Assembly (NCBI RefSeq): GCF_000382165.1
Contig: NZ_KB907709.1
Location: 62,001 to 126,000, forward strand
DNA from: Arsukibacterium perlucidum DSM 18276
GTDB lineage: Bacteria; Pseudomonadota; Gammaproteobacteria; Enterobacterales; Alteromonadaceae
Direction of reading: 5' to 3'
Length of the DNA stretch: 64,000 bases
The notes below the pieces were generated by a model, which worked only from the letters and a program-made list of their open reading frames with translations, was not told the DNA's origin and did not search any database. The translations under genes were made by a program, and so were the position numbers. Of this stretch, positions 27,175-30,043 are shown in pieces (the stretch's first letter is position 1; each line of letters opens with the position of its first letter).

Positions 27175-28242
27175 TTAATTATTGCTATCCTTTGGTTCAC
27201 CACGCTGCCGCCAGGCCAGGCAGCTTTTTACCCAAATATGGCGGATTAATGCCCGCCAGTGCATCTTGTGCCGGTAGCCGCGCAGGTACCACAGTGCGCC
27301 AGCTATTTTAGCTTTTACCCCAGGTTGCAGCTGCATTAGCAGCAAGGCCCTGGCGCTATCCCGCCGCGCCGGGCTCTGGTCGAGTTGCCTGGCGATAGCA
27401 TCTGGCAGACTGCGCTTAAAAAGCGTTTCAATCAGCAATAAAGTATTTACCACTGGCTCTATGGCGCCGAATTGCTCAGCGTCACTCAATAGTTGCGGCA
27501 ACAGCTGTTGTTCTGCCAACTGGCTATAGAGCAGGTCTAAATCAATTAAATCTTTTACCAGCTTATGCTGCTCTTCCTGCCAGAAAAAATGGATAGCAGC
27601 ATGAATATATAAAAAACTAAGGCTGGGCACCTGAAAACATGACCCCTCTATCTGACAGGCACTTGCAAAAACGTGCTCAGTGACAAGGTTTTTACGGCCA
27701 GCCAATGGAAACAATGCAAAGTGCAAATCCAGTGCAGTACCACGCTTCACATGATAAAACGGCGGATTTTCGTGAGACAGCTCCAGGTAAAAGTGTTTAT
27801 CGTAGGCCGACATAGCCGGTTCAAAAAAACCGGCAAAAAACAGTTTTGATTTACAGTCATTCAACTGCTGCCGGCTTACCAGCAAATCAATATCAGAATA
27901 TAACCGGCCTTCGCTGACTGTCAGAGCCAACGCCTGATAGGCTGCGCCCTTTAGCAGCAAGCACGGATAATTTGCCTGACCGAGACAGGGCTCCAGTTGC
28001 AATAACTCGTAAAATAAACTGGCCCGCTGCTTCTGATAGTAGCGCCAGCCCCAGGCAAGGTGTTTCTGTACTGTTTCAGGTAAATCGCCCAGCATATTAT
28101 GCCGCGCAAACAGTGCTTGCAGTTGTGCCGTTAACCCCAGACTCCGTGCCTGTTGCAGCAAATCAGTCCAGCAAGCGGCACCGGCTTTAGCCTGAAAGCG
28201 CTGCGGGTCGCGAAAGCACTGAATCAACAGCGGCACTAACAT
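27175..28242 (-). CDS. nucleotidyltransferase-family protein (NTP_transf_5 type)
   Basis: A 355-residue protein of the family found beside HPr-kinase-like peptide kinases and in some lasso-peptide clusters. LLLKGAAY (about 96-103) and RLYSDIDLLVS (113-123) form the nucleotidyltransferase core, with Asp117 and Asp119 as likely metal ligands. A third acidic site is plausible in TALDLHFALFP. The rest is helical. The ATG overlaps the end of the kinase gene by 7 bp, so the two are translationally coupled. Substrate unknown: transfer of a nucleotide or phosphate to a modified peptide or protein is inferred from context. Last gene of the operon. Confidence 0.8.
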   Translation of the reverse strand: MLVPLLIQCFRDPQRFQAKAGAACWTDLLQQARSLGLTAQLQALFARHNMLGDLPETVQKHLAWGWRYYQKQRASLFYELLQLEPCLGQANYPCLLLKGAAYQALALTVSEGRLYSDIDLLVSRQQLNDCKSKLFFAGFFEPAMSAYDKHFYLELSHENPPFYHVKRGTALDLHFALFPLAGRKNLVTEHVFASACQIEGSCFQVPSLSFLYIHAAIHFFWQEEQHKLVKDLIDLDLLYSQLAEQQLLPQLLSDAEQFGAIEPVVNTLLLIETLFKRSLPDAIARQLDQSPARRDSARALLLMQLQPGVKAKIAGALWYLRGYRHKMHWRALIRHIWVKSCLAWRQRGEPKDSNN

Positions 28243-29096
28243 AGCAGCTGCTCCAGCAACTCAAGCATTTGCCTGGTATCACTGTATTCCAGGCGAAAGC
28301 TCTCGGTATTTTCCACCAGCTGACTTAACAAATTAAAGCCCTCAGCTGCAAATACCGCATAGTTAAAACTATTCTGCGCCAGATAAAGCAGAGTATCCGC
28401 TTTGGGCATAGTAAACAGCGCGACGGGCTCTGCTGCATTTGCCTGATAGGCGGGAAAGATAATCCACATTGGCTGTGCACTGCTATTTTGCTGCTGCCAG
28501 CTGCTATCAGTTGGCCGTAAATAAGCTACAGTGCCTTTTTCAGTATCAGCCGTGCGGTGAAAAATTTCTACCCCTGGCTGATAGTGCTGAATAACCTCTA
28601 TCGAGGCGTTTTTTAAACTGACTGGACGCACATAGGGCTGCAACTGGCCACTGGCCGGGTCAATCAAACACATCTCATCAGATAATAACCGCCAGCCTCG
28701 CAGCATCAGCAAAGCACATAAAGTGCTTTTACCGCTGCCTGGTGGTGCTGGCATAATCAGGGCCTTGCCATCTTTTTCCAATACCGCAGCATGAATAGCC
28801 AGATATTGTTGCTGATAAGCCGATACACACCAGTTCAATCCCCATTCAAACGTTGGGATCAGCTGGTTAGCATCAGCCATCCGGAAATGTTCGCTCCCAG
28901 TACGAAAATGGTAAGGCCGGCTTTTGCCGCTGAAACGTCGCTTATAGTCTATATGAAAGTCATAAACATGGTCATTATCAGGTACGGGCCGCAGCACATC
29001 AGCCGGATAAAGCCGGGCTAAATCACTGAATAATGCCGGGCTGTCAGTATCAATACGGACCGTAAAGGGGGGGGTGTGTAATGAAAAAAGCGGCAA
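28236..29096 (-). CDS. HprK-related kinase (HprK-rel-A type)
   Basis: A 286-residue kinase related to HPr kinase/phosphorylase but lacking its N-terminal domain. P-loop PAPPGSGKSTLC (about 116-127) and LLSDEMCLID (138-147) match the nucleotide- and metal-binding core. Relatives form the HPr-rel-A systems and include lasso-peptide kinases that phosphorylate a precursor serine. The TTG start is chosen because AGGAG lies 5 nt upstream, overlapping the stop of the small upstream gene. Codons 8-10 contain an 8-C homopolymer. No PqqD-like or lasso cyclase gene is present, so the target is unknown. Confidence 0.8.
   Translation of the reverse strand: MPLFSLHTPPFTVRIDTDSPALFSDLARLYPADVLRPVPDNDHVYDFHIDYKRRFSGKSRPYHFRTGSEHFRMADANQLIPTFEWGLNWCVSAYQQQYLAIHAAVLEKDGKALIMPAPPGSGKSTLCALLMLRGWRLLSDEMCLIDPASGQLQPYVRPVSLKNASIEVIQHYQPGVEIFHRTADTEKGTVAYLRPTDSSWQQQNSSAQPMWIIFPAYQANAAEPVALFTMPKADTLLYLAQNSFNYAVFAAEGFNLLSQLVENTESFRLEYSDTRQMLELLEQLLC
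29067..29074 (-). repeat. C8 homopolymer near the kinase start
   Basis: Eight consecutive C on the coding strand (G on the plus strand) fall in codons 8-10 of the HprK-related kinase. Slippage by one base would truncate the kinase early. Confidence 0.95.
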
Positions 29097-29098
29097 AC

Positions 29099-29281
29099 TT
29101 ACTCCTGCTCAGCAGAGTGTTCCGGGATAACCTTGGCAGTAGCATAACTGATATGATCAAAGCTGACAGTAGTATTATCAGCAGAAAAACGCAGAAAACT
29201 AAGGTGTTGTTGCTCACTATGCTGCTGCCTGGTCTGGCTTAACCAAGCAGCATAATTGCTACTGTGCTCATTGCTGAACAT
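29099..29281 (-). CDS. 60-residue protein of the kinase operon
   Basis: A short soluble protein, rich in Ser, His and Gln, with no signal peptide or recognised domain. It is accepted as real because GAAGG lies 7 nt before its ATG, it starts 3 bp after the upstream stop, and its own end carries the Shine-Dalgarno of the kinase. The middle (HLSFLRFSADNTTVSFDHISYATAKV) looks like two beta strands, and the C-terminus is acidic (PEHSAEQE). It may be the kinase substrate, a recognition protein in the PqqD position, or a regulator. It is not similar to PqqD in any way I can see. Confidence 0.65.
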   Translation of the reverse strand: MFSNEHSSNYAAWLSQTRQQHSEQQHLSFLRFSADNTTVSFDHISYATAKVIPEHSAEQE

Positions 29282-29284
29282 CCC

Positions 29285-29881
29285 TTAGCCTTCGATATAA
29301 AGTTGCAGTACTTTCGCCAGAGCATCGGTTTCGCCGGTCAACATAGATTTATTGTAGGCATCAACAAATGCTTCAGGTTTCGGATAGATGCCTTGGTCAT
29401 AATAAAACAATGAATGCAAAAATAATGACGCACTGTCCCGAACCAGTGAAGTAGGTCCCTCTTCTACAGCTTGTTGCAAAGTACCGTCAAAACCACCGGC
29501 AAAAAAATTACTGAACAAGGTAGTCTCATTAATGGCTATACCGTTATGAGTATAGGTATGGCTGGCATATTTATGGTAGTTAGGTGAGCCAGAGTGAAAA
29601 TACCCTTTACGTTCACTACCATTACCCGGACCAGTCATAAAATATTGCTTGGCATTTCCATGCGAAAGAAACTGATTATGACAATCCTCAAACTGCTCGG
29701 CCTGCACCGATTGCATTTTTGACATACTGGCACTTAAATTACAATTTTGGGTACTGTAACCCCAGGCGCCTTTACTTTTGAGGGCCATTAAAACCGGCAA
29801 CGATCCCATGCCCGCACGTACTAAAAACTTACGTCGGCCACTCGCTGCTTTGATATCCTTATTGTCCATAGACTCTGTCAC
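29285..29881 (-). CDS. Tat-exported protein of unknown function
   Basis: A 198-residue protein starting at GTG (or the ATG at 29869), with a twin-arginine signal GRRKFLVRAGMGSLPVLMALKSKGAWG. The mature part is rich in Ser, His, Tyr, Phe and Asn. It contains only two cysteines, at NCNLS and EDCHNQF, and the pattern SHTYTHNG. No known catalytic motif is recognised. Tat export implies folding, and possibly cofactor loading or modification, in the cytoplasm before export. As first gene of a four-gene operon with a kinase and a nucleotidyltransferase, it is a candidate client for modification. Confidence 0.75.
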   Translation of the reverse strand: MTESMDNKDIKAASGRRKFLVRAGMGSLPVLMALKSKGAWGYSTQNCNLSASMSKMQSVQAEQFEDCHNQFLSHGNAKQYFMTGPGNGSERKGYFHSGSPNYHKYASHTYTHNGIAINETTLFSNFFAGGFDGTLQQAVEEGPTSLVRDSASLFLHSLFYYDQGIYPKPEAFVDAYNKSMLTGETDALAKVLQLYIEG

Positions 29882-29988
29882 CCTTGTCCTGATGTTTCAG
29901 CGTAAAGCTTGCTATTCCGTTGAAACATGCAAAAATCAATCCAAAGCTGTAATCACTTGAAATTCATTAAATTCCTAAGCGCACAGCA

Positions 29989-30020
29989 TCAGTTAAATCT
30001 AAAATTGTAAATTTAACTGA
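29989..30020. promoter_or_regulatory. 10-bp inverted repeat upstream of the Tat-protein operon
   Basis: tcagttaaat (29989-29998) and atttaactga (30011-30020) are perfect inverted repeats with a 12-nt AT-rich centre. The position, just past the M48 protease gene and about 110 bp before the Tat-protein start, suits either an operator of the kinase operon or a weak terminator of the protease gene. Confidence 0.45.
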
Positions 30021-30043
30021 CGCCTCAACTCATCCTAAGCTAG

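Follow-up and report, generated by a model that had tools for sequence, protein, structure and literature searches.

An HPr-rel-A operon of Arsukibacterium perlucidum behind a putative PEP-CTERM-type promoter may modify an exported protein

The stretch analysed here (64,000 nucleotides of Arsukibacterium perlucidum DSM 18276, contig NZ_KB907709.1, positions 62,001 to 126,000; hereafter the window) carries a compact operon of four genes, which encode a protein with a twin-arginine translocation (Tat)-type leader, a 60-residue protein, an HprK-related kinase and a nucleotidyltransferase. By its family matches, the operon is a member of the named and apparently unstudied HPr-rel-A system (NCBIfam TIGR04352 for the kinase and TIGR04353, PqqD_rel_X). 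Our preferred interpretation, to which we assign a probability of about 55%, is that it belongs to the exosortase/PEP-CTERM regulon and that its enzymes, guided by a leader, phosphorylate and further tailor a surface protein destined for export; this chemistry is predicted. The genes look designed to place a phosphate, and perhaps a sugar as well, on a single protein ahead of its export. An earlier reading of the same DNA (the original prediction) had presented it as a possible new system, while the kinase and PqqD families already bear the HPr-rel-A name in NCBIfam. Three elements are new, and the original prediction had proposed none of them: the exported protein as a standing member of the system, the reduction of PqqD and the connection to the exosortase/PEP-CTERM regulon.

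The ORF list and the sequence placed the four open reading frames (ORFs) on the minus strand at positions 27175..29881, separated by 3 bases, 2 bases and a 7-base overlap, which confirmed the tight packing and the positions described previously. The kinase (28236..29096) scored 296 bits against TIGR04352 (HprK-related kinase A, cut-off 200) in the NCBIfam scan and carries the GSGKST P-loop, and the nucleotidyltransferase (27175..28242) scored 124 bits against PF14907 (NTP_transf_5, cut-off 31.2) in the Pfam scan and carries the DID motif; both assignments of the original prediction therefore held. The kinase was below the cut-off of the HPr(Ser) kinase/phosphatase model TIGR00679 (11.4 bits, cut-off 240), and PF07475 found no match in the whole genome. 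TIGR04355 (HprK-related kinase B, which we take to be part of the GAK system) gave 19.4 bits, far below its cut-off of 200, as expected of a distant relative. Residues H102, GxGKST and S139-D140-E141 were invariant in the 18 aligned kinases, as were K98-G99, D117, D119 and D172 in 14 aligned nucleotidyltransferases, and the catalytic motifs of both enzymes read as intact. Lasso-peptide kinases are reported in PMC9266682 to require His-Lys-Asp-Asp; judged from the alignment, this signature is retained here as H-K-D-E, with the second D changed to E. Sequence searches of the PDB returned six distinct sequences for the kinase profile, at E values of 0.05-0.85, and none for the nucleotidyltransferase profile. 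The kinase shares 83-86% identity with the seven Arsukibacterium loci, followed by Rheinheimera, and the mean ratio of nonsynonymous to synonymous polymorphism (pN/pS) in the Arsukibacterium comparison was 0.14 for the kinase and 0.20 for the nucleotidyltransferase. A run of eight G at 29067-29074 (eight C on the coding strand) falls in kinase codons 8-10 (T-P-P) and may be a slippage site near the 5′ end.

Conservation of the gene set was analysed in a near set of 32 loci from relatives (21 near loci and 11 others), a wider set of 74 loci with kinases over the cut-off and a named set with the best 80 of 584 loci; the seven controls were six loci with below-cut-off kinases and L062 (two kinases weakly matching that of the window). 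The kinase was present in 32 of 60 relatives, the own genome included, and the Tat-type family, sought separately, was also present in 32; both occurred, adjacent to each other, in 31 genomes (Fisher p 9e-15, in a test that, like the others used here, ignores shared ancestry). The exceptions were G046, where the Tat-type profile built in this analysis did find an upstream protein (L055), and G050, where the match lay inside a 760-residue frame. Together with the small ORF, found in 21/21 near loci, these results gave a positive answer to the co-occurrence test set by the original prediction. Among sampled genomes, the kinase exceeded the TIGR04352 cut-off in 27/274 of the class and 51/299 of the phylum, and the operon recurs across Proteobacteria. 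Profile searches detected the Tat-type protein, the nucleotidyltransferase and PqqD in 32, 32 and 8 loci of the near set, in 60, 46 (adjacent; 58 counting a second nucleotidyltransferase cluster) and 64 loci of the wider set, and in 78 (both misses at contig ends), 80 and 59 loci of the named set, compared to 0, 2 and 3 of the seven controls. When all ORFs of the near and wider loci were scanned, 91/93 Tat-type and 69/77 PqqD matches were in the expected place. The sets overlap, since 14 loci outside the named set encode kinases that recur in it without any difference. Each genome has one Tat-family protein, located beside the kinase by coordinates, and G007 has a second, stop-broken weak match. 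On the basis of these profile counts, the Tat-type protein is a regular HPr-rel-A partner, found beside PqqD in ordinary loci, and not the substitute for PqqD that it had been taken for. The operon of the window shares with the HPr-rel-A system a kinase over the cut-off and the order of its genes, in which a protein fills the PqqD slot and an NTP_transf_5 gene is present; we presume the latter to be part of the system (adjacent in 80/80 named loci). It differs in a slot protein of about 60 residues that escapes TIGR04353, and in a Tat-type partner that has no NCBIfam family in the members scanned. One control, L062:4536-7434 from another genome of the genus, encodes an ABC transporter and a PqqD-like protein of 92 residues, followed by an HprK-like kinase that is only weakly related, and resembles a peptide natural-product cluster.

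The Tat-type protein (29285..29881) would be the substrate. Its GTG start at 29881 is probably a wrong call; the ATG at 29869 (MDNKDIK...) is preferred since the Shine-Dalgarno-like AAGGGTGA overlaps the GTG and is conserved in 6/6 aligned relatives. The 'Tat' label comes from reading a motif, GRRKFLVRAG...AWG, in which RRKF and a hydrophobic stretch are followed by CNLSASMSKMQS, and export itself is predicted. TatC is encoded in the same genome, but the twin-arginine model TIGR01409 gave the leader no match. The protein was also below every NCBIfam and Pfam cut-off, none of the members scanned had an NCBIfam family, and the library scans found no PEP-CTERM tail (TIGR02595, PF07589). Its structure model was poor (mean predicted local distance difference test score, pLDDT, of 59), and none of the 16 matches in the fold search reached E<=0.001. 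In an alignment of 27 members, R17, S36, C47, S50, S54 and F123 were invariant and S58 was nearly so. The pattern CxxSxxxSxxxS was present in the Tat-type protein of 21/21 near loci, and the looser C-x2-4-S-x3-S in 51/64 named and 18/58 wider proteins, compared to 10% and 7% of shuffles; the counts compared with shuffles were limited to proteins with a locatable signal (2/21, 9/11, 58/60 and 64/67 per set). Across eight Arsukibacterium genomes, pN/pS in 18-codon segments was 0.28 for residues 1-18, 0.03 and 0.06 for residues 19-54, and 0.28-0.53 beyond residue 54. The neighbouring M48 protein showed the reverse pattern, with 0.20 for its signal and 0.09 for the remainder. The twin-arginine leader and the adjoining CxxSxxxS stretch are thus more constrained than any other part of the protein, which would be surprising for an ordinary export signal but not for a leader read by a dedicated partner together with a modification site; they are probably the recognition and modification site.

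PqqD-type recognition domains bind the leaders of ribosomally synthesized and post-translationally modified peptides (RiPPs). In ordinary HPr-rel-A loci, a PqqD occupies the position between the Tat-type gene and the kinase: among six slot proteins scanned with TIGR04353 (cut-off 35), those of L163 and L221 gave 77 and 61 bits, that of L057 gave 19.9 bits and those of L060, L051 and L054 gave no score. In the window, this slot is filled by the 60-residue protein (29099..29281), which was below every NCBIfam and Pfam cut-off and was matched neither by TIGR04353 nor by the PqqD profile built in this analysis. A slot ORF was found in 21/21 near loci, with a length of about 55-77 residues in the clade of the window (three ORFs read 83-85 residues with an upstream start), and slot proteins of 88, 82, 76 and 66 residues exist in sister lineages, the last three in L051, L052 and L054. 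The profile of the 60-residue protein aligned with the PqqD beta-hairpin (V.FD..S..T) with a score of 20.0, reached by 0/400 column shuffles, at an hhalign probability of only 2.4%. The PqqD fold includes C-terminal helices; the model of the 60-residue protein (mean pLDDT 74) has one helix and three strands, without those helices. Foldseek against the PDB returned 502 matches at E<=10 and none at E<=0.001, a three-strand model being too small to decide; the best 50 of them, with a pyocin spike and WW domains at the top, included none named PqqD, and row 41 was the sactipeptide maturase 5why (E 1.8). The mean pN/pS of 0.57 (range 0.36-0.75, 28 pairs) indicates that purifying selection on the gene is weak. 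When 37 chosen loci out of 193 with a kinase were placed on a kinase tree (starts of some short ORFs, such as those of L040 and L041, were chosen by hand), the short slot form needed four label changes and was therefore gained or lost more than once. The slot position, the slot-protein lengths in sister lineages and the hairpin match make it more likely that the 60-residue protein is a reduced PqqD chaperone than a second substrate. Consequently, of the two targets named in the original prediction, the Tat-type protein stays as the probable one, while the 60-residue protein is better explained as a chaperone, and the claim that PqqD is missing gives way to a protein in the PqqD slot with an apparent PqqD hairpin. 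The long kinase ORFs of L161, L162 and L174 were considered as PqqD-kinase fusions and rejected, as the PqqD profile gave no support and they look like over-extended starts.

The upstream region connects the operon to a regulon. PMC1569441 describes a 17-nucleotide (nt) motif 1 ending in TTTACA, a spacer of 62.8 nt on average (32-92) and a sigma-54 motif 2 upstream of PEP-CTERM genes. The minus strand of the window fits this description, with CGTCAGTTAAATTTACA (30006..30022) as a putative enhancer-type PrsR site, 62 nt, and TGGATTGATTTTTGC (29929..29943) as a -24/-12 promoter of sigma-54 type (GG-N10-GC), followed by the start codon. The two-part pattern was present upstream of 21/21 near loci (spacer 62-63), 9/11 others of the near set, 18/60 wider and 33/64 named loci, compared to 11/677 flanking ORFs and 0.7-2.7% of shuffles; the count omitted upstream stretches shorter than 250 bases or containing N, and upstream regions were taken from the RR codon for Tat-type genes and from the ORF start for controls. 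The 11 bases before TTTACA, on which there was no selection, mostly begin with [TC]GTC (G in 54, T in 52 and C in 52 of 57 rows, that of the window included). A plain sigma-54 scan at 9 of 11 matches found 0/21 near loci, compared to 22/60 and 31/66 in other sets and 4% of shuffles; it misses the near loci because, by the alignment and the two-part pattern, they mostly carry TGGAT at -24. Genome-wide, the bare pattern was weak, with 45 matches in this genome and 28 in a reversed control. Thirty of the 45 matches were read (L275 and L276 being one place), 23 of them inside an ORF of at least 150 residues and seven uncovered. Three of the seven had an ORF start within -30 to 260 nt, namely this operon and two PEP-CTERM-type proteins (L282:839-1462 and L284:256-1401, the second also with a trypsin domain). 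Their tails scored 20.1 and 17.7 bits with TIGR02595 (cut-off 16) and 26.0 and 17.5 bits with PF07589 (cut-off 20.7, which the second fails). The same genome encodes PrsR (688 bits, cut-off 502.6), and PMC9850573 describes a PEP-CTERM gene whose -24/-12 promoter has been mapped and depends on RpoN1. Judged by these motifs, the operon is preceded by a sigma-54-type promoter and, further upstream, a putative site of PrsR type, and it appears to be switched on together with the exosortase/PEP-CTERM surface-protein and exopolysaccharide system. An inverted repeat seen by eye at 29989-30020 (TCAGTTAAAT, 12 nt, ATTTAACTGA) overlaps motif 1, and aligned relatives do not keep it exactly.

Genome content pointed in the same direction. 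Within the class, exosortase was found in 25/27 genomes with the kinase and 67/247 without it, and among the relatives in 32/32 with the kinase and 10/28 without it. NCBIfam genes labelled XrtA/PEP-CTERM flank 45/151 loci (34 wider and 11 named, with one representative per cluster), and no such cluster occurs in the 16 kb around the operon of the window. Among 15 kinase-exosortase pairs on the same contig, 10 were on contigs longer than 500 kb, and four of these were within 60 kb, where 0.5 were expected (p 0.0008), so that the distance by itself counts as moderate evidence. Taken together, the promoter, the co-occurrence and the neighbouring genes suggest that the kinase system is tied to the exosortase/PEP-CTERM surface system. 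With the PEP-CTERM/exosortase system with PrsK/PrsR/PrsT, as described in PMC1569441, the operon shares the upstream motif 1, the spacer and the sigma-54 site, and its genome has exosortase and PrsR; it differs in that the Tat-type protein has no PEP-CTERM tail and the operon (contig 9) is not beside the exosortase (contig 2). The words 'HPr' and 'PqqD' are absent from the text of PMC1569441. Our searches found no literature joining exosortase with HPr kinase, or HprK, PqqD and exosortase in pairs, and none on HPr-rel-A, HprK-related kinase or TIGR04352, which is no proof of absence since subscription papers were mostly outside them; papers pairing PqqD with HPr kinase were, by title, all on lasso peptides. 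Two further features of the neighbourhoods were recorded. In L105, as in L119, no PqqD or Tat-type protein was found beside kinase A, and L105 adjoins a TIGR03087 PEP-CTERM/XrtA glycosyltransferase. In 29/151 loci (such as L207:5935-6729), the operon has in its vicinity an HtrA-like trypsin_2 protease, which by eye carries an export signal and could process the exported protein.

The closest biochemical precedents are the clusters of phosphorylated and phosphoglycosylated lasso peptides (PadeK, ThcoK, SyanK and PsmK-PsmN), which, according to PMC8498205 and PMC9266682, pair an HprK-like kinase with a nucleotidyltransferase; for pseudomycoidin, PsmK phosphorylates the C-terminal Ser and PsmN adds hexoses there, nucleotidylation by PsmN not being excluded. 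The operon of the window has the same pair of enzymes. Its four genes differ from those clusters in having no lasso cyclase or B protein, and the candidate substrate has about 195 residues and is predicted to be exported. By eye, no lasso cyclase, leader protease or RiPP recognition element (RRE) protein was seen in the list of ORFs between 22000 and 36000, neighbours not being scanned. By analogy with RiPP leader recognition, the PqqD-like protein would bind the twin-arginine leader in the cytoplasm and delay export. The HprK-like kinase would then phosphorylate at least one of the spaced serines in C-x2-S-x3-S-x3-S after the leader, and the NTP_transf_5 enzyme could extend that phosphate with a sugar or a nucleotidyl group, in the way reported for PsmN on phosphorylated pseudomycoidin. 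The finished protein would exit by Tat and might serve at the cell surface alongside PEP-CTERM proteins and exopolysaccharide. In 13 wider loci (L092, L100-L102, L109, L113-L115, L118, L120-L122 and L136), the kinase is directly followed on its 3′ side by a protein of TPR-sulfotransferase type, whose single scanned representative scored 172 bits against PF13469. This protein does not replace the nucleotidyltransferase, as eight of the 13 (L092, L100-L102, L109, L113, L118 and L136) have both, and as a side observation it looks like a third tailoring enzyme in some lineages.

Several observations weigh against this interpretation, besides the shared ancestry, the silence of TIGR01409 and the 10/28 exosortase genomes without the kinase mentioned above. 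Modification of the Tat-type protein is deduced, and its chemistry and site are predicted, the choice of target residue being a guess. Not every Tat-type protein has CxxSxxxSxxxS: in its loose form the motif occurs in 14/58 wider and 27/64 named proteins (1-2% of shuffles), and the exact C..S...S in 69/159. Lasso kinases target a C-terminal serine, which is present in 9/170 Tat-type proteins and 0/27 aligned rows; with so few ending in Ser, the rule for the modified site of lasso peptides does not apply here. As the Tat-type and PqqD profiles were built on the near and wider sets, the named set alone confronts them with partly new sequence. Among the 74 wider loci, 28 had no adjacent nucleotidyltransferase by hidden Markov model (reduced to 16 when the clustered nucleotidyltransferase is counted), 10 had no PqqD match and 14 had no Tat-type protein. 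Of these last, L084, L125 and L136 have an upstream stretch of less than 700 bases, PqqD was the only one of the two proteins found in L130 and L132-L135, and neither was found in L103, L104, L105, L111, L119 and L127. Finally, the exosortase is far away or more than 100 kb from the kinase in G300, G305, G307, G048, G018 and G020.

In an alternative that we consider unlikely, both enzymes would work on a precursor of the exopolysaccharide, either a glycan or a small molecule, with the Tat-type protein as no more than a co-regulated periplasmic partner of that pathway. The XrtA-labelled glycosyltransferases and amidotransferase among the genes flanking the 45 loci fit this idea, as do the kinases of L105 and L119, which stand without adjacent PqqD or Tat-type protein, the former next to its TIGR03087 glycosyltransferase. 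However, a PqqD-family protein in the operon (over the TIGR04353 cut-off in 2/5 of the non-short slot proteins scanned) points to a ribosomal peptide or protein as substrate, there is one Tat-type protein per kinase, and the leader segments are more constrained (0.03-0.06) than the kinase (0.14), in a comparison of segments with a whole-gene mean. It is quite improbable that the 60-residue protein is instead a modified RiPP-like core, released or exported afterwards. Its small size, fast evolution (pN/pS 0.57), location after the Tat-type gene and before the kinase, and lack of a name in the libraries would suit a core, but it takes the PqqD position in all 21 near loci, L051, L052 and L054 offer slot proteins of 82, 76 and 66 residues, the hairpin alignment beats 400/400 column shuffles, no export signal was seen by eye and the model folds as a helix with three strands. 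Least probable of all, a reversible regulatory serine phosphorylation of the twin-arginine protein, as of HPr by HprK, with no lasting tag, would agree with the HprK-related family and the retained H, Walker K and D-E, but it conflicts with the 11.4 bits against a TIGR00679 cut-off of 240, with the nucleotidyltransferase adjacent in 80/80 named loci and with export, which would remove the substrate from the enzyme.

Leader-guided modification of the Tat-type protein, our preferred interpretation, can be extended, tentatively and as a proposal that we consider less likely than not. HPr-rel-A might be the cytoplasmic tailoring arm of the exosortase/PEP-CTERM system, in which the twin-arginine signal doubles as a RiPP-like leader, and PqqD or its three-strand version links Tat export to serine phosphorylation and to the addition of a sugar through the phosphate (or of sulfate, perhaps, in some lineages), so that the protein would end up bound to the exopolysaccharide matrix, either covalently or tightly. 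PMC9850573 implicates a PEP-CTERM protein in floc formation. For HPr-rel-A, whose genes had no assigned role, the evidence suggests which protein is the probable substrate, where it may be modified, what may regulate the operon and in which cellular setting (exosortase and exopolysaccharide) it acts, each of them directly testable. PqqD, apparently shortened repeatedly to about 60 residues, would then exist as a recognition domain of very small size. Should the leader interpretation be right, a secretion signal would at the same time be a modification leader, joining RiPP-style enzymology to protein export.

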